Program-made: the position numbers and the translations under genes
The notes under the pieces: generated by a model
What the model was told of the DNA's origin: nothing
Seen by the model: the letters and a program-made list of their open reading frames with translations, nothing else
Database searches by the model: none
Part shown: positions 1,085-57,471 of the stretch, one piece after another
How the letters are laid out: the number at the start of each line of letters is the position of its first letter
Position numbering within the stretch: the stretch's first letter is position 1
DNA from: Bdellovibrio svalbardensis
GTDB taxonomy: Bacteria; Bdellovibrionota; Bdellovibrionia; Bdellovibrionales; Bdellovibrionaceae
DNA: 64,000 nucleotides
Direction of reading: 5' to 3'
Assembly: GCF_029531655.1 (NCBI RefSeq)
Contig: NZ_JANRMI010000004.1
Coordinates: 310,001-374,000, forward strand

Positions 1085-2578
1085 TCATACCATCTCCGTC
1101 AACTCATTTTTCAAGGCTTCTCCAGCCGCAAATATCTTCTTTTTTCTGGCTGGATCCAATTTGTCCAGGTTTTTAACCATCATCGAAAGACGCGGATTTT
1201 GTGCAAAAAAATCGCGGTGCTTTTCAATAAAGCCCCAATACAGACCATCCAAACCCTCGCACCAGTCCCCGGCCTTTTCCTTACTCATTTTGCGCCAATA
1301 GTTTGAACCACAAATATAGGGTTTGGTCGCAAAAATGCCGCCATCACTGAACAAGGCCATTCCGTAAACATTCGGTCCCATTACCCAATCCGATGAATCT
1401 ACAAACATCTCCATGAACCAACGATGTGCATCCCGGGGGTCCACTTCCAGGAGTAACATGAGATTGCCCAGCACCATGAGGCGCTCAATATGGTGGCAGT
1501 AACTGTATTTGAAAACTTTCTTCAGAGTTCTTTCCAGTTGTGGAAGATGACTCCCGCCCTTGTACCACACTGAAGAAAGCTTGCGATGATGTCCCCAAAA
1601 ATTGACCGTATCCTGAGTGGCACTGAAGTTCTGGTAGATTCCGCGAACAAACTCTCGCCAGCCAATCACCTGCCTGACAAAGGCCTCCAGAGAGGCTATC
1701 GACACTTTATTCCTTTTTGCAAAATGGAGTGCCTCCTAGATAACTTCCTGAGGCGTGAGCAATCCCGTATTTAAAAAGGGAGTGAGCACCGAATGAAACA
1801 CGAAATCCGAGTGAATCGCCAGCGCATCTTCATAGGGGCCGAAAGAATTCAGTTTGTTTTTTAGAAAGTCTTCAAGCCATTGTTTGGCTTGATCGCGCCG
1901 GACCGGCAGCCAAAACTCTTCGACATCTCCTGGATGATTCTCAAAAAAAACGTCACAAACTTTTTGCACCGCTCGAACATGGGGATCTTTGGGAAAGCTT
2001 GGCAGATCCGGCGGGAAAATATCTGCAGGCAATGGCAGGCGATTTTCCTCATCAAAACTCCACTGCCCACCCGCCGGCCGCATCTCATGATCGACCAAAA
2101 TTTTAAATCTCTTACGTTGCTGTTCATAGAAGTTCTTCATGAACGGCTTTTTGTATTTCTTAAGGTAGTCTGAAAAACCAACACGACTGGTGAGAAACAT
2201 CGGAGATCTTAGGACTTCGAAATCCACCCGCAAGGTTTTAAAAACTTCCAGAATGCGCGTTTCAAAAAACTTATCCTCAACTTCAAATAGATATACTTTT
2301 TTAACCTTATTTTTTTTAATATAGAAAGCCAGGCTGTCATCATAGCTTTTTTGATCAACGCCTAACTCTTCATAGTGAACTGATCGGCCCGAATCAATCA
2401 GCTCATCTTTGTAGGCACGCATAGCCGCCAAAAAGAAAATAATTTTATGCTTGTGAAAACGAAAATATGTACACAACTCACGGTCTTCCCGCATGAATAC
2501 CGTCGTTGGCCCTTTTAAATTTTCAGGCCAGCGCGAAGGATCGAACAACTGGTTTCCCAATACCAAGATCAATTCCAC
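1085..2578 (-). pseudogene. Photolyase-related protein (DPRP/FeS-BCP type) interrupted by an in-frame TAG
   Basis: Two frames in the same register together make one deoxyribodipyrimidine photolyase-related protein of about 497 codons, close to the usual family length. The first part (1736..2578, GTG start, 280 residues) is the Rossmann-type N-terminal domain, starting ELILVLGNQLF. After a single TAG (1736-1738) the frame continues without a shift through ten codons and then the FAD-binding helical half (1085..1705), with EAFVRQVIGWREF, YCHHIERLMVLGN and DGLYW. The second half could start separately: AAGGA lies 5 nt before a GTG at 1705. The DYCxxC pair of iron-sulphur homologues is missing. 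This is either a nonsense mutation, a sequencing error, or a gene split into two chains. Confidence 0.75.
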
Positions 2579-2824
2579 ATTCTTCCTAACTTCAAAGTGC
2601 GGTCAGACTCATTCATTAAAAAAGATATAGCATTTTGGTTTTTCCACGTCCCCAAAAGACATTATCTTTTCATTCGGCTTGTTGTTTAACAAACATTTCA
2701 AAGAGCAACCTTCTCCTTGCAAAAGTATAAGAGAACTCACCTCCCCTGGCGTTGACATCTTTCAGCGCGCAACCAAAACTGCCCAGCGCATGAAACGTGA
2801 CAATTGAATTTTGGAGTACTTGTG

Positions 2825-3988
2825 GTGAAAACGCTGCTCTTTGTTTTTGGTACCCGTCCCGAAACGATCAAAATGGCTCCGCTCATTCTTAAAGCAAAAC
2901 AAGATTCCCGCTTTAAGGTGTTAGTCTGTTCGACCGGTCAACATCGTGAAATGATCAAGCCTCTGTTTGATTTTTTTGGCATCACCCCTGACTTCGATCT
3001 GGATTTGATGAAGCCCGGTCAATCGCTGACGGATATTTCCATGGGGGTCATGACTGGTGTTCACCGTATTCTTCAAGAATCCAAAATCGATGCCGTGCTT
3101 ATTCAAGGAGACACCTCAAGCTGCTTTGTCGGAAGCCTGGTGAGTTTTTACCACCGCGTGCCGGTGATGCACATTGAAGCGGGTCTGAGATCTGGAGATA
3201 TTTATTCACCCTATCCTGAGGAATTCAACCGCAAGGCCACGGGCCTGGTGGCACACACTCACTTTGCACCGACCGAGACTGCCAAAGAAAATCTTCTCTC
3301 GGAGCAATATCCAGATAGAGATATCTTTGTCACTGGCAACACTGGCATTGATGCTCTTTTCGAAGTGCGCAGAAAACTTTGTGAAGACGTGGCACTCAAG
3401 ACCCAGTTCGACCGGGATTATTCATTTTTGCACACCGACAAAAAGCTGGTTTTAGTAACGGTCCACCGCCGTGAGTCCTTTGGACTTCCTATGGAAGAGG
3501 TCATGCGCGGACTGATGGAACTATCAAAGCAGGATGACATTGAACTTTTGATTCCTTTGCATATGAATCCACAAGTTCGCAAGTCTGCGGAAAAGATTTT
3601 TGGCGCACAAGCGCAGTGGGTTGATAAGGGAGTGCCTCCCCGATCAGGTGAAACCAAGATTTGGCTGTGCGAGCCGGTGGATTATGTTCCCTTCGTTTAT
3701 TTGATGAATCGTGCGCACTTAATCATTACGGACTCTGGCGGCGTTCAGGAAGAAGCGCCCTCATTGGGGAAGCCTATCTTGGTGGCCAGGGAGAAAACAG
3801 AACGTCCCGAGGCTATTGCTGCCGGGACTTCCAAACTCATTCCCCTGGAGCACAAGGCCTTTTTAAATACGGCGTTGGAGGTCCTGCGTGATCCAAGCAT
3901 TTACAGGAACATGTCGGAGGCAAAAAATCCCTTCGGCGACGGCACCTCCAGTGAAAAGATTCTCTCTTTGGTGGCCGAAAGAATATAA
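2825..3988 (+). CDS. wecB: UDP-N-acetylglucosamine 2-epimerase (non-hydrolysing)
   Basis: A 387-residue cytoplasmic enzyme that interconverts UDP-GlcNAc and UDP-ManNAc for surface polysaccharide or cell-wall glycopolymer synthesis. The N-terminal FGTRPETIKMAPL, the HIEAGLRSGDIYSPYPEEFNRK region and TDSGGVQEEAP are hallmark WecB/MnaA motifs. The acidic residues and His corresponding to E. coli Asp95, Glu117, Glu131 and His213 are present in QGDTSS, HIEAGL, PEEFNR and TVHRRES. Start choice: GTG codons at 2822 and 2825 both follow GGAG at 2812-2815; the upstream TTG at 2804 has no ribosome binding site. A thioesterase gene follows after 40 nt on the same strand. Confidence 0.93.
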   Translation: MKTLLFVFGTRPETIKMAPLILKAKQDSRFKVLVCSTGQHREMIKPLFDFFGITPDFDLDLMKPGQSLTDISMGVMTGVHRILQESKIDAVLIQGDTSSCFVGSLVSFYHRVPVMHIEAGLRSGDIYSPYPEEFNRKATGLVAHTHFAPTETAKENLLSEQYPDRDIFVTGNTGIDALFEVRRKLCEDVALKTQFDRDYSFLHTDKKLVLVTVHRRESFGLPMEEVMRGLMELSKQDDIELLIPLHMNPQVRKSAEKIFGAQAQWVDKGVPPRSGETKIWLCEPVDYVPFVYLMNRAHLIITDSGGVQEEAPSLGKPILVAREKTERPEAIAAGTSKLIPLEHKAFLNTALEVLRDPSIYRNMSEAKNPFGDGTSSEKILSLVAERI

Positions 3989-49795: not shown

Positions 49796-49978
49796 TAATA
49801 TCTTGGAAAATCTCTCAGACCATAAACCACTCTAATCTCAACTTAGGGAATGCAACCTCATTTTTAAATAAAGTCCGGCTCACAATAGCGTGTGCAAATT
49901 AGGAAAACTCCGCAGTTTCACCCAATTAGCATGATGTGCATTCAAGAATTCATTATTAAATGCCGAGAAGTTATATCA

Positions 49979-52900
49979 ATGGAACGTCTCATGAACTTTT
50001 TTGGCATAATAGCGCAAAAATCAGATCTGCTTAAGCAGATGATTAAACAGCCGCTTCTATTGAAGCGCCTACGCCTCTCCATTGCCTTCAGCACAAGCGT
50101 ACTCTTTTTCTTTTTCCTTCCTTTAACGAAAACACATGCTGCCCCTGCCGTTCTGACTTACCAAGGCAGAATTCTAAATACCAATGGAACCCCTCTGGAA
50201 TACAGTAGCGTTTCTTTCTTGTTCCAGATCATGGACCCCTTGGGGCAATGTCTTATCTATCAGGAGCAACTGAGCGGCATTAACATGGTGAACTCGGGGG
50301 GTGTATTTGATGTGCCCATCGGGACAGGTTCGATACAATATCCTTTGGGGGCGACGAGCATTCTCAATGCCTTTAATAACACCTCCCTTCTCAGTTGTGG
50401 CACGTGCACTCTGAGTGGCGCCACTTACTCCTGTTCAAACAGCTCAAGTACCTACCAGGCATCTTCAGGTGATTTAAGAAAACTGCGTGTATCATTTTAT
50501 GACGGTTCATCTTGGAAAACGATCGCTCCCGATAATGTTATTCGCTCGGTTCCATTTGCTGGATACGCCGCTTCTGCTGAAAAGCTTGGGACCAATGTCG
50601 CCACTGATTTTTTGACTAAAGCAGGATTGCCAAATTGTTCAGCTGGTACTTTCTTGTCTTGGAATAGCTCGACCTCCACTATGACCTGTTCCGCGGCCGG
50701 TGGCGGAACTATTACCGGAGTGACCTCAGGAACGGGGCTGAGCGGTGGTGGCACTTCAGGCAACGTGACCATCGACCTTGCGAACACGACAGTGACAGCC
50801 GGCACCTACGGTTCTTCAACATCAGTTCCAACTTTCACAGTCAATGCTCAAGGGCAACTTACCGCTGCAGGTAGCGTCACCATCAGCGGCGTCGCACCCG
50901 GCGGAGGTGCCAGTGGTGACCTCTCGGGAACCTATCCAGGTCCTACAGTGGCAAAGATTCAAGGCATCGCAGTGAGCTCAACAACTCCCTCCGCCATTGG
51001 ACAAGTTTTAAGATATGGCGGAACACAATACTCTCCCGCATTCTTGGGAATCGGCGATATTCGCTCGACGGTAACACCTTTTGGCGGTGCTTTTACTGCA
51101 ACAGCTTGTTCGATCAGTCAGACATTGTATTATCAATCAGCCACTGACACCTTCCAGTGTCAGTCTATTGGCGGTCTTCCTGCCACAGCTATTACTTCGG
51201 GAAGTTTTGCCGCGGCTCAAATGCCGGCCTTCACTGGAGACGCAACCTCCCCTGCCGGTTCGACCAATTTGACATTGGCAAACTCAGGCGTCACCGCAGG
51301 AACTTATACATCGGTGACTGTGAATGCAAAAGGTCTCATCACAGCGGGAAACAGCCCGACGACTCTTGCCGGTTATGGCATCAGCGATGGGATTCAAAAC
51401 ATTGGCGGCACTCCAAGTGTGCAAACTGGAACATTTGCATCTCGCCCAGCTTTTGGAATAGCGGGAAGACTTTATATTGCTTCGGATAATAACACTCTTT
51501 ATCGCGACACGGGTTCTGCTTGGGTCGCCATTGGTGACGGTGCCGGTACAGGTACGGTGACTTCAATCACTGCAGGAACTGGCTTAACTGGTGGTACTAT
51601 TTCGACTTCGGGTACTATTGGCTTGGGTACAGAGTTGACGGGATTGAACGGACTTTCAACGACGGGTTTTGTTAAACGTACTGGCGCAGGTACTTACACT
51701 ACTGCTGCCGCAAGTTTAACGGGCGATGTTTCAGGGATCTTGCCGGTTGCAAACGGTGGTACAAATTCTTCGACAGCCTTAACTGGTAACAAAGTAATGG
51801 TTTCAAGTGGTGGCGCGATTGTTGAGGCAACTGCAATTACCGCGAACAGAGCCTTGATCTCGGATGCGAATGGAATTCCAACTCACTCTACAGTGACCAA
51901 TACAGAACTCGGTTACTTATCAGGTGTGACTTCAGCGGTTCAAACACAAATCAACGGCGCGGCTCTATTGGCGGGTCGCACTGGCGGTCAGGTTTTAAAT
52001 GGTGGAACTGCCGCAAGCAACAGCTTGACATTAGACTCTACGGCGAACGCCACGAAGGGATATGTATTGCTAAATCCTACCGGTGGCAATGTTGGTATCG
52101 GAACCGCAACTCCGGCGATCAAACTTGATGTCGCTGGTGCGGTTCGGGTTGGTACGGATGCGACTGTCTGTGCAGCTGGAGTCGCGGGTGCGATCCGCTA
52201 CAATGGTGGCAACGTCGAGTATTGTAACGGAACATCGTGGACTGCTTTTGCTGCAAGTGGCTCTGGCATTACTTCACTAAATGGTTTGACTGGAAACACA
52301 CAAACTTTTGCCATTGGCACAAGTGGGAACTCGCCTGCATTCAGCTCTGCGACAACTACACACACCTTAAATATTCCGATGGCGTCAGTTGCTTCGGTAA
52401 CTGCGGGTCTCATCAGTAAAACTGACTATGACAACTTCAATACAAAGCTGGGAACAGCGTCGACATTCTCTGGTGACGTTTCAGGAACTTCCAGCACGAT
52501 GTCGGTGGATAAAATTAAAGGCAAAGCAGTTAGTGCAACCGCACCAACGGATACTCAGTTCCTCGTCTATAACAATGGTGCAACTCAATATGCTCCGGTG
52601 AGCATGTCGGGCGACGCAACGATGGCGAATACGGGTGCTGTGACTTTGAAGAACACCGGTACTGCTGGAACTTATACTAAGGTCACAACGGACGCTCAAG
52701 GTCGCGTGACTTCTGGCACTACTCTTGTTGCGGCGGATATTCCGGGTCTTGATTGGGCTAAGATTACATCCGGAAAGCCAACTACACTCGGTGGCTATGC
52801 AATTACTGATGGCGTGCAAAACAATGGCGGCACACCAAGTATGCAAACGGGAACTTTGGCTGCTCGCCCTGCATTTGGAACAGCCGGAAGATTGTATATC

Positions 52901-55603
52901 GCTTCAGATAACAACACTCTCTATCGCGATACGGGTGCAGCGTGGATTGCAATCGGAGATGGCGTTGGTGCAGGAACTGTGACATCGATCACAGCCGGAA
53001 CTGGCCTAACCGGTGGTACTATTACGACTTCAGGTACTATTGGTTTAGGAACAGAGTTGACGGGATTAAACGGACTTTCAACCACGGGTTTTGTTAAACG
53101 CACTGGCGCTGGTGCTTACACTACTGCCGCTGCAAGTTTGACGGCCGATGTTTCTGGAGTCCTGCCGATTGCCAATGGTGGTACAAACTCATCAACAGCA
53201 TTAACCAACAACCAACTGATGTATTCAGGGGCAGGTGCGATCAAAGAACTGGGCGCGATGACTGACGGTCAAATCGTTGTCGGTAAAAATGCCAGTGCCC
53301 CACAAATAGTTACCATGAGTGGCGACGTGACTGTTTCGAATACCGGTGTGACGACGGTTGGAAAAGTGAATGGCACCACCGTTACGGGTGTAGGCTTAGC
53401 CAATAACAATATTCTGCAGAACACTTCTGGTTCTGCAATTACGGCGAATAATGTTTTATTGAGCAACGGAACTGCAACAGGTGTTACCGCATTGACGAGC
53501 CCCGCTAGTGGTGTGTTGACTTCTTCAGGGACTGTGCCGACCTGGTCTGCATCTTTGCCAGCGACTATGGGTGGCACGGGACAAACTAGTTTTGCGGTTG
53601 GTGATTTGCTGTATGCCTCAACAACGACAGCGATGTCCCGATTGCCGGCCTCAACATCTGGCTATGTTTTAACTAGTAATGGCGTGGGAAGCGCTCCTAG
53701 TTGGCAGGCCTTTTCAGCTGGAGATTTCAAATCCGACGGTTCCATCAGCATGACAGGCCCCCTTAAGGCGTCTACGGGAACTGCAACGGATCCATCCATC
53801 ACCTTCAGTTCAGATGCGAATACTGGCTTGTACTCCGGTGGAGCTGGTCTGTTGGAAATGACTACAGCTGGAGTACTCAGATTTGAAGTCAGCAGCGTGG
53901 GTTTTCTTTCTCCGAGTGTAAATGGCCCCAAGTTGACTTCCGCAGCGGGAACAGCGGCGCTTCCCGCCTTTGCCTTCAATGGAAATACCAACTCTGGTAT
54001 GTGGTCTCCTGGTGCAAATGCCTTGGCATTTTCTTCCAATGGTGCAGAACGCGTGAGAATTGATTCCACTGGCAATTTTGGGATTGGTACAAATGCGCCT
54101 GCTGCCTTATTAGATATAAGTTCTTCTAACAGGACTAAAATTGGTTTTACCAACACTAGCGCGGCCAGTGGCTCTCGAGCTTTCGCAATAGAAAACTCTG
54201 GCGATATGCTGAAATTTAATGCTACTTCGGATGACTACAACACCGCTCAGGGTGCGCTATTCCTTAGCCGAAATAGAAAGATTGCCATTGGTCCCATCGT
54301 TGGCGCATCTATTCCTTACGATCTGACTCTTTCGGGATATTCGGCCAATAAAACTATTGGTATTGAAAGAACCGCGAACTCCACTCAAAATGGAGGAAAT
54401 GGTAACGGGATCAGTCTTCTTGCTGGTGGCGCCACTGCGGGATTGACAGATAAAGATGGCGGCAGCCTGATCTTCTCAACCGGAATATCGACGGGAGCCG
54501 GCAGCGCATCGATCACTTTTAAAACAACACCTAGTGGGGCTACTGGAGCGACTGACAATAATCCCGCAACTCGCATGATAATCGACGGCGCCGGCAATGT
54601 GGGAATGGGCACCACTGCGCCCTCTTATCCTCTGGATGTAACCGGCAATGTAGGAACAGGTTCACGCATTGCTATGGATCGAGATGGCGCATTGAATTCT
54701 TTCATTAGAGCGCGTGGTACAGATACAGAGCCAGCCAGTATCGCCTATGGATTTCACTCCACTGCCACAGGGACTGTGGACAAGTTGATGCTCCAAACCA
54801 GCGGCGTACAACGTATGACTGTCGATTCTTCGGGAAATGTTGGAATTGGAACAACGGCTCCATCTACTCTTCTTAGCGTCGACTACCCATCCGCTGCGAA
54901 TGGCGCAAATACGAATATCGCAAGATTTAGCGGCGGAACCGATGCCACTCTGGGCCCCTTGGGATTGGCAATTTGGGTCAGTCCATCGGCAACAGCCACC
55001 AACCGGGTTATTGGTCTTGGTGTTGGTGACTCCACCGGTGCAAGAAGTCTTGCTCTGAATGTGAATTCCAATGGAGCCGCAGGCATGGTGGGTATTGGAA
55101 CGGCAGCGCCCAGTTACACTCTTCACGTGGTCGGCAGCGCAGGTTTAAGTTCTGGAACAGCTTGGATCAACGCTTCTGATATTCGCTTAAAAGATATCCA
55201 AGGCGACTATGAATATGGGCTTAAGGAAGTCTTAAAACTTCACACGGTTCGCTATAATTATAAAAAAGGAAATGCGCTGGGACTTCCTTCAGATCAGAAC
55301 AAAACAGGATTTATCGCTCAAGAGGTTCAATCGGTAATTCCGGATGCGGTTCATCGCAGAATTGATGGCTATCTGGAACTCAACGTGGACCCGATCCATT
55401 GGGCCGTAGTGAATGCCATCAAGGACCTATATCGCAAGTATCTCGCCCCACTCATGGCAAATGATCAGACGCAAGATCGAAAGATTGCTTCCCTCGAAGC
55501 TCGTGCCGAGAAAGCAGAAAAAGAAAATACTCAATTGAAACAAAAAAATATCGAACTTGAAGATCGACTGACCCGAATCGAAAAGATTTTGAAATCTAAA
55601 TAA
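49979..55603 (+). CDS. Giant phage-fibre-like surface protein with C-terminal S74 chaperone (candidate mosaic adhesive trimer)
   Basis: A 1,874-residue exported protein. After a hydrophobic signal segment ending THAAP it has an N-terminal [16 protein letters not shown] domain, then about 1,500 residues of fibre-type repeats ([47 protein letters not shown], GNVGIGTxAP). It ends with an intramolecular chaperone/peptidase S74 domain whose catalytic Ser1733 lies in ASDIRLKDI, then a coiled coil. S74 domains trimerise fibres and then cut themselves off. This matches the mosaic fibre proteins known in Bdellovibrio for prey recognition. Starts at 49979, 49991 and 50039 are all possible; none has a strong ribosome binding site. 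Confidence 0.88.
50025..50040. other. 16-bp perfect palindrome at the fibre gene start
   Basis: ATCTGCTTAAGCAGAT is its own reverse complement and overlaps one candidate ATG (50039). If that ATG is used, the palindrome could be an operator or a structure over the start; otherwise it is coding. Confidence 0.4.
51360..51789 (+). repeat. Internal fibre duplication, first copy
   Basis: About 430 bp encoding YGISDG...TNSSTALT. The protein is highly similar to the second copy (52780-53212), but the DNA differs at many third codon positions. Confidence 0.8.
52780..53212 (+). repeat. Internal fibre duplication, second copy
   Basis: About 433 bp encoding YAITDG...TNSSTALT, the partner of 51360-51789. 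[17 protein letters not shown] and [20 protein letters not shown] are shared unchanged. Confidence 0.8.
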
Positions 55604-55626: not shown

Positions 55627-55668
55627 CCCAACTCATCGCATCGCAAAAAGGTACGGCGTACCTCTAAA
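55627..55668. repeat. Direct repeat, right copy (flanks the fibre gene)
   Basis: Matches 49754-49795 over 42 nt with one mismatch and contains the same AGGTACGGCGTACCT palindrome (55649-55663). Its last bases supply the stop codon of the convergent methyltransferase gene. Confidence 0.85.
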
Positions 55669-56506
55669 GAAAACTCTCGATAGTTTTTGGGGATGGCGCA
55701 TGGCCAACTCGGTAAAGATGTCCGTAATCTGCGGGTACAAAGATATCTTCAATCTTAGTTGATATATCTTCAAAAGCCGCAGAATAGGTATTGTGAATCC
55801 AAAAAGCATTAACACCGGAGATGTCACAACAAACCAATCTGTAATCATTGGCAACCAGGGTCTCATTAAAATCAGTCAAAGAAGCACCGAAGTAGTCGCT
55901 GCCATCCCACTGAAATTGCGGATTATATTTCACACGAAACTTCACTGGTGGCGGAAACTTTCCATTGTATTCACAAATTATAACAGCAGGACGTTTCCCT
56001 TTCGCCATTAGGGCTTCCAGGATATAGATATCTACCCCATCCAGATCGATACTAAATATATCAACATCAGATAACCCCATTCTTTCGCAAGCTGAATCAA
56101 ACAGCGCATTGGCATTTTCTGCTGTGATCCAACTCTTTATATAAGTAAGCTTTTTACTGTTCAAAGGAATAGTGATTGCCAACTCATCAGCCCCCACCCA
56201 AGCGCCACGATGACCATGAACCAATAAATTTACTGTATTGTTTTCGAGACCACTGTCGGCCCCGAACTCAAGAAAGGTGATTGGTCGCTTTAGATTCAAT
56301 CTTCGAATGATCTCCAGCAAGATTCCATCCTCACCATTTTGAGAAAAATACTTTTCAGAGTGTTTAAGAAGAGGATTCTTGTGTTTCAACTCAAAGGAGC
56401 GGCGAATCTCTCTTTGACGGCTATTTAAGAAAGGTCGAAGTCCAAGTCCATTAAACGCTTGGACATTCGCTGTGAACATTGCCTGTGAAATCTCGTTTGG
56501 ATTCAT
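55664..56506 (-). CDS. FkbM-like methyltransferase domain protein
   Basis: A 280-residue cytoplasmic protein with a Rossmann-type core. FLEFGADSGLENNTVNLLVHGHRGAWVGAD resembles motif I of FkbM-type methyltransferases, preceded by SEKYFSQNGEDGILLEI and followed by DIFSIDLDGVDIYILEAL. FkbM proteins often methylate glycans or small molecules; the substrate here is unknown. The stop codon falls inside the right-hand direct repeat, so the C-terminal end may have been set by that repeat. The ATG follows an AAAGGCAGG stretch. Confidence 0.75.
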   Translation of the reverse strand: MNPNEISQAMFTANVQAFNGLGLRPFLNSRQREIRRSFELKHKNPLLKHSEKYFSQNGEDGILLEIIRRLNLKRPITFLEFGADSGLENNTVNLLVHGHRGAWVGADELAITIPLNSKKLTYIKSWITAENANALFDSACERMGLSDVDIFSIDLDGVDIYILEALMAKGKRPAVIICEYNGKFPPPVKFRVKYNPQFQWDGSDYFGASLTDFNETLVANDYRLVCCDISGVNAFWIHNTYSAAFEDISTKIEDIFVPADYGHLYRVGHAPSPKTIESFL

Positions 56507-56833: not shown

Positions 56834-57124
56834 GTGTATCGACGATATGAAATCAATGTGCGCTTTAATGGTATTCCTTACTCCGAGCTTTGGATTGACC
56901 CTCATTATGAGGAAAAACATAAAGGCAGCATTGATGATGAACTCATACAGCAACTGGTCCAGCAATCAGACAATTGGCTGCTAACTTTAAACGCAAAGAT
57001 TCAGGGCTTCGAGTTTTATGAAGTCGATGGTGAATATGATGGGAAGACCTATCGATTGATACTCGTAGTGCCCCCTAACCATGAATACTTGGGGGTCAGA
57101 AATGCTTACAGGAGGTCCAAGTGA
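56834..57124 (+). CDS. Putative toxin of a type II toxin-antitoxin pair
   Basis: A 96-residue protein of mixed alpha/beta type. The KHKGSIDDELIQQLVQQ helix is followed by a beta-rich half, GKTYRLILVVPPNHEYLGVRNAYRRSK, reminiscent of compact RelE/HigB-like or DUF4258-like toxins with a basic C-terminal strand. This is a resemblance, not a firm family match. Start is GTG at 56834. Its stop overlaps the start of an HTH protein gene in GTGA, the coupling expected of a toxin-first (higBA-like) module. Transcription may be controlled by the palindrome just upstream. Confidence 0.5.
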   Translation: MYRRYEINVRFNGIPYSELWIDPHYEEKHKGSIDDELIQQLVQQSDNWLLTLNAKIQGFEFYEVDGEYDGKTYRLILVVPPNHEYLGVRNAYRRSK

Positions 57125-57471
57125 AGAAAGTTTCAAAAAAGCCAAGTAAAATAAGTAAAGCTCCGCCACCGGGCTGGCCTTCAGAAGAAGTTGTTAAAGA
57201 GTTTGAAAAAAAGACGAGAAAATCTTTAGTGACAAAACTACTCCCCCCCAATCCTGGACTTGTTGAGTACACAAAGCAGACTCTTTGCGAGCACTTCATT
57301 CGCTATCGTCGCGACGAAAATATCACTCAGCGTGAACTGGCAAAGCGCCTAGATGTAACAGAAAATAGAGTCAGTGAGATTTTACATTATCACCATCAGA
57401 CCTTCACGATAGATAGACTGATTGAACTATTGAGCCGAATAAAGCCTGACGTGAGAATCAAGGTTGCCTAG
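57121..57471 (+). CDS. XRE/HTH_37-type antitoxin-like regulator
   Basis: A 116-residue DNA-binding protein. A basic, Pro/Lys-rich N-terminus and a coiled stretch (about 20-50) precede an XRE-family helix-turn-helix: ITQRELAKRLDVTENRVSEILHYHHQTFTIDRLIELLSRI. This is the HigA-2/HTH_37 pattern seen in antitoxins encoded after their toxin. AGGAGG is 5 nt before a GTG start that overlaps the upstream stop. Likely role: neutralise the upstream protein and repress the operon; inferred from context. Confidence 0.72.
   Translation: MKKVSKKPSKISKAPPPGWPSEEVVKEFEKKTRKSLVTKLLPPNPGLVEYTKQTLCEHFIRYRRDENITQRELAKRLDVTENRVSEILHYHHQTFTIDRLIELLSRIKPDVRIKVA

Follow-up and report, generated by a model that had tools for sequence, protein, structure and literature searches.

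The gene at positions 49979–55603 (+ strand) of the window, by which we refer to the whole 64,000-nucleotide stretch of Bdellovibrio svalbardensis DNA considered here, encodes a protein of 1,874 aa (plus stop) that matches both NF053851 and PF13884. We assign a probability of about 93% to the reading that this is a chromosomal mosaic adhesive trimer (MAT) fibre of the S74 subgroup, from a non-HD100 Bdellovibrio species, which owes its length to shaft blocks shared with its paralogues and works in the manner outlined below. The preliminary description, in which the same reading frame was interpreted as a very large mosaic fibre and a candidate prey-recognition adhesin of a type known from Bdellovibrio, is supported in its essentials, as judged from sequence, and is not new, as the protein belongs to the published MAT superfamily. 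The gene itself is a solid addition to a known family, and the most novel lead is an element at its start site, described in the last paragraphs.

MAT fibres have been put forward as a means by which Bdellovibrio recognizes diverse prey. The superfamily was described in 2024 in B. bacteriovorus HD100, where it comprises 21 fibres, 13 of them with S74, and family experiments revealed surface display, trimers, S782-dependent self-cleavage of Bd3182 and a glycan-binding tip (PMC10769870). Our analysis of the HD100 genome (G006) likewise found 13 S74 ORFs, equal to the published count, together with an ORF of 922 aa whose catalytic serine falls at residue 782, precisely the position published for Bd3182. 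In the B. svalbardensis genome (3.90 Mb, 10 contigs), 22 MAT N-domains were found, 16 with S74, as compared to 21 and 13, respectively, in HD100. The present protein shares with the S74 subgroup of HD100 a signal-peptide-like start, the MAT N-domain, a beta-fibre shaft and an S74 chaperone with SDxxxK. Across the phylum, the N-domain is present in 103 of 291 sampled genomes, and in 0 of 14 control genomes. A scan of genome contigs returned one relative, from a Bdellovibrionaceae MAG (L033), and the search of viral contigs returned one relative of the S74 fibre and none of the N-domain.

The mechanical ORF call begins upstream, at GTG 49892, rather than at the ATG at 49979 that was chosen in the preliminary description. 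The ATG is the better choice, as it is preceded at a distance of 10 nt by a FliA-like promoter, an arrangement shared with sister genes, and this start therefore entails a long leader of 54 residues (49979–50140, +). Where a signal peptide had been proposed, inspection of the sequence reveals a basic region, an FFFFLP hydrophobic core and then THA|A, a signal-peptide-like N-terminus with probable cleavage at THA|AP. A conserved beta-rich domain of ~130 aa directly after the signal peptide is a trait of the MAT superfamily, and such a domain (Bdello_MAT_N, NCBIfam NF053851.1) is present here, scoring 196 bits against a cut-off of 60. The profile match spans residues 43–215, of which the mature domain is assigned to residues 55–215 (50141–50623, +). 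A PDB sequence search with the N-domain profile gave no match, in agreement with the literature, which reports no structural homologues, and the AlphaFold model of this domain, built from a two-sequence alignment, was weak (pLDDT 53).

The N-domain is followed by a proximal shaft (residues 216–463; 50624–51367, +) and by a set of shared shaft blocks (residues 464–1370; 51368–54088, +) that make up 907 aa, or 48% of the protein. The phage-tail-like repeats noted earlier are borne out by matches of the shaft to PHROGs tail-fibre families (E 2e-20 and 4e-17) and by one internal duplication, the two copies of which (51386–51819 and 52808–53241, both +) are 81.1% identical in nucleotides across 434 bp. 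The distal fibre (residues 1371–1600; 54089–54778, +) resembles the beta-helix of Bd2133, the structure of which (PDB 8ond) matches residues 1346–1576 at E 7e-5. Next comes a tip of the Bd3182 beta-helix type (residues 1601–1732; 54779–55174, +; crystal structure PDB 8ojn, E=2e-9), in which two VGIGT.AP....L loops lie at the positions of the Bd3182 capping loops. The protein ends with 142 residues of S74 chaperone and C-terminal coiled coil (residues 1733–1874; 55175–55600, +), 58.5% identical to Bd3182 from S782 on. Within this part, PF13884 (Peptidase_S74) matches residues 1733–1792 at 45.5 bits against a Pfam cut-off of 22. The SDxxxK motif that characterizes the S74 subgroup is intact as SDIRLK (S1733/K1738), as had been stated. 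Together with the N-domain score above its cut-off and the homology to 8ojn and 8ond, these matches bear out the earlier assignment to the chimeric-fibre family.

Homology to the trimeric 8ojn suggests a trimeric intertwined beta fibre, and the intact motif predicts self-cleavage before the catalytic S1733; an AlphaFold monomer model of the tip, again from a two-sequence alignment, failed (pLDDT 38.5). We propose that the FliA-type promoter would drive the gene in the attack phase, that the protein would be exported, and that three chains would wind around one another to form a long beta fibre, guided by the S74 chaperone at the C-terminus. This chaperone would then cut itself off at S1733, exposing the C-terminus of the Bd3182-type tip, the conserved N-domain would anchor the fibre to the surface of the predator, and the cleft of the tip beta-helix would contact a prey-surface glycan. 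Domain order, family membership, catalytic motif, promoter-like site and shaft sharing are observed directly, and expression phase, export, trimerization, cleavage, surface location and glycan binding are expected by analogy. Bd3182 is of the same tip type and has the same catalytic motif, equivalent capping loops and a part of its shaft that is related to that of the present protein. It differs, however, in length (922 aa as compared to 1,874) and in its N-domain, which is of the divergent TYEGLL type rather than the YQGR type found here. As only 35% of the tip beta-helix is identical between the two, ligand specificity cannot be transferred from Bd3182.

Bd3182 also raises the question of when such a fibre is used. 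One could suppose that the present MAT fibre acts after attachment, in bdelloplast handling, porthole sealing or vesicle positioning, and not in first prey recognition. Indeed, Bd3182, which has the closest characterized tip, forms a late focus in the bdelloplast (120–180 min) that needs its catalytic serine, and no significant predation defect was reported for its deletion (PMC10769870). However, every C-terminally tagged MAT tested was already on display at the surface of attack-phase cells prior to any contact with prey (PMC10769870), and the promoter found here is of the attack-phase type. We thus regard a post-attachment role as a less probable reading that nonetheless deserves attention, and a role in first prey recognition as likely but not certain, given the late appearance of Bd3182 and the reported outcome of its deletion. 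The label of prey-recognition adhesin has its basis in the family-level experiments (PMC10769870). As the family is redundant, a single deletion mutant may show little.

The claim that the fibre is unusually long holds when it is compared to HD100 and most congeners but not within its own genome. Frame lengths were measured from stop to stop, which slightly overstates protein length. For the 16 S74 frames of the B. svalbardensis genome, the median is 1,868 aa and the longest frame has 4,029, compared to 1,297 and 2,771 for the 134 S74 ORFs found across nine other genomes of the genus, and to a median of 1,381 aa in HD100. At least 1,874 aa are reached by 8 of the 16 frames at home, versus 2 of the other 134 (Fisher p about 1e-7). 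At home, this gene ranks 8th of 16 among S74 fibres and 10th of 22 among MATs, and is therefore long for the genus but ordinary in its own genome.

The source of this length was sought by comparing the protein, piece by piece, with the 21 paralogues of the same genome. The N-domain and proximal shaft are nearest to L032 (62% and 54% aa, respectively), a gene that lies on the same contig at a distance of ~50 kb. Residues 464–660 are nearest to L029 and L099 (89% and 87% aa), residues 661–1246 to L099 and L029 (92% and 89% aa) and residues 1247–1370 to L098 (83% aa), while the S74 part is nearest to L031 and L028 (70% and 67%). With the very long paralogues, DNA identity is 79–87% in the shaft blocks and far lower in the N-domain and tip. 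At fourfold-degenerate sites, identity between paralogous shaft blocks is 0.51–0.62, a value that strong codon bias in repetitive shafts could inflate, as compared to 0.17–0.41 for N-domain and tip between home paralogues and 0.34–0.36 when two conserved genes are compared between this genome and its closest relative, G005. The 586-aa block at residues 661–1246 has five further near-full-length copies in three sister genes at home (75–92% aa); in 23 other Bdellovibrio genomes, no full-length copy was found, the best match being 70–71% over 170–224 aa. The simplest reading of these comparisons is that shaft blocks have been exchanged and duplicated between paralogues within this lineage. On this account, ~907 residues of blocks exchanged or duplicated among L029, L099 and L098 would have been added to an otherwise ~970-aa fibre; indeed, removal of residues 464–1370 would leave about 970 aa, the usual MAT size. 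Exchange and duplication of the shaft among sister genes with diverged N-domains and tips would offer a way for fibres to grow, nearly doubling their length in one lineage. As the lengthening is lineage-specific, the role of fibre reach in predation becomes testable by comparing species.

Two observations on other fibres of this genome should be mentioned here. L029, L099, L098, L019 and L027 are giant MAT fibres, with frames of 3,152–4,029 aa, far over the HD100 range, and contain large internal and mutual shaft duplications. L021 (S74) and the adjoining L096 (non-S74), at C1 803600–814700, are 87% identical in DNA over their first ~947 residues and have different tips, so that tip swapping has likely been caught in sequence.

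The exchange of shaft blocks between paralogues could also suit a silent reservoir gene, kept mainly as a donor or acceptor of blocks for other MATs. As the 1,874-codon frame, the catalytic motif, the promoter-like site and the start-site element are all intact, we consider this very improbable and favor a working MAT fibre. Hardly any weight is left for a tail fibre of a resident prophage, for despite the PHROGs matches and an identical 12-residue stretch in the S74 fibre of an IMG/VR contig, the signal-peptide-like N-terminus, the MAT N-domain and the scatter of the 16 S74 ORFs across five contigs argue against it, and it was rejected when 0 of 8 neighbours matched a phage structural family in a Pfam scan. 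The phage S74 tail fibres and endosialidase chaperones (K1F 3GW6, T5 4UW8 and the phage contig L189) do resemble the protein in having a C-terminal S74 chaperone on an intertwined beta fibre and the cleavage-site motif. They differ in that the gene studied here is chromosomal, encodes a signal-peptide-like N-terminus and a MAT anchor domain, and has no phage genes found nearby. The fibre on L189 (IMGVR_UViG_3300045017_000039, 1894–3678) is 594 aa long, and it is with this fibre that the present protein shares the 12 identical letters.

The neighbours with Pfam matches encode a prolyl oligopeptidase, a chemotaxis receptor, an SNF2 helicase, a DEAD helicase and an HTH regulator. The prolyl oligopeptidase and SNF2 genes that flank the fibre gene are widely separated in G005, and neither is beside a listed S74 fibre; there is therefore no positional orthologue in that genome. 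Next to the fibre gene, at window positions 56834–57471, a 96-aa ORF with no Pfam match is followed by an HTH_37/HTH_3 protein, a pair resembling the HigB/HigA type of toxin-antitoxin system. A convergent 280-aa ORF at 55664–56506 (−), also with no Pfam match, appears FkbM-type methyltransferase-like by eye only.

The observations on the 5' end cover window positions 49942–49987 and loci L100–L119, L190–L209 and L017–L032. The FliA (sigma28)-type promoter (49942–49968, +) consists of TCAAG (49942–49946), a 16-nt spacer and CCGAGA (49963–49968), and thus departs from the published attack-phase consensus TTAAG-N16-CCGATA (PMC3627812) by one mismatch per box, with exact spacing. When at most one mismatch to CCGATA is allowed, such a box lies 7–12 nt before the start in 33 of 42 MAT genes of three genomes, mostly at exactly 8 nt, and at 10 nt in this gene. 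For the FliA-driven small RNAs APsRNA6 and APsRNA7 (PMC3627812, Table 2), the published 5' end lies exactly 8 nt past the box, and for APsRNA3, the third FliA-marked small RNA of that table, 12 nt past it. From these spacings, MAT mRNAs are predicted to have no 5' leader or almost none. An earlier FliA scan with other spacing rules gave 7 hits, where shuffles gave 3.1 on average and 7 at most, and the pattern became clear only once anchored at the start codon; a sigma-70 promoter scan was uninformative. The class II MATs of this genome (e.g., L027, L028, L029 and L098) have no box; by eye, what lies upstream of them resembles the terminal part of a different gene, with a Shine-Dalgarno-like stretch.

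Just inside the ORF, the gene carries an ACGT element (49984–49987, +), lying within ATGGAACGT, that is conserved just within MAT genes in various reading frames. In 30 of the 33 boxed MAT genes, ACGT occurs no more than 22 nt past the start codon, as compared to a mean of 8.8 and a maximum of 16 in 1,000 trials in which the same peptides were encoded by random synonymous codons, a null that is approximate as codon choice was uniform. Both the threshold for the box and the rule for ACGT were set on these first three genomes and applied unchanged to two held-out genomes, where ACGT was found in 16 of 18 genes (null 5.0, maximum 12 in 2,000 trials). In the first set, 9 of 31 first ACGT sites are out of frame with the codons, and ACGGAACGTATTT is common to L101 and L197 in different frames; the signal therefore lies at the nucleic-acid level. 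Attack-phase small RNAs were considered as antisense partners, and TACGTTC was found in 0 of 8 stretches; APsRNA5 contains GTACGTA, which is too short to carry meaning.

We see about even odds that the MAT genes make up a regulon whose members share a stereotyped 5' arrangement, both parts of which the present gene carries, in a lineage where fibre length is also evolving by shaft-block exchange between paralogues. In such a regulon, a FliA −10 box would place the transcription start no more than about two bases from the start codon, giving a leaderless mRNA, and an ACGT-centred DNA or RNA element just inside the ORFs of MATs and certain large exported lipoproteins would be read by a novel regulator, methyltransferase or small RNA. 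If functional, the shared element would offer a way into the question of how a predator keeps its entire set of adhesins coordinated. The box-to-ATG layout is found 184 times in HD100, compared to 58 in a backwards control, and only 23 of the 184 carry ACGT (4 in the control). Nine of these 23 are at MAT genes included in the present analysis, and one lies just before Bd3182. Among those checked, the full box-ATG-ACGT layout also precedes three genes (L162, L165 and L171) whose product starts resemble those of large exported lipoproteins; the ACGT element may therefore extend beyond MAT genes.
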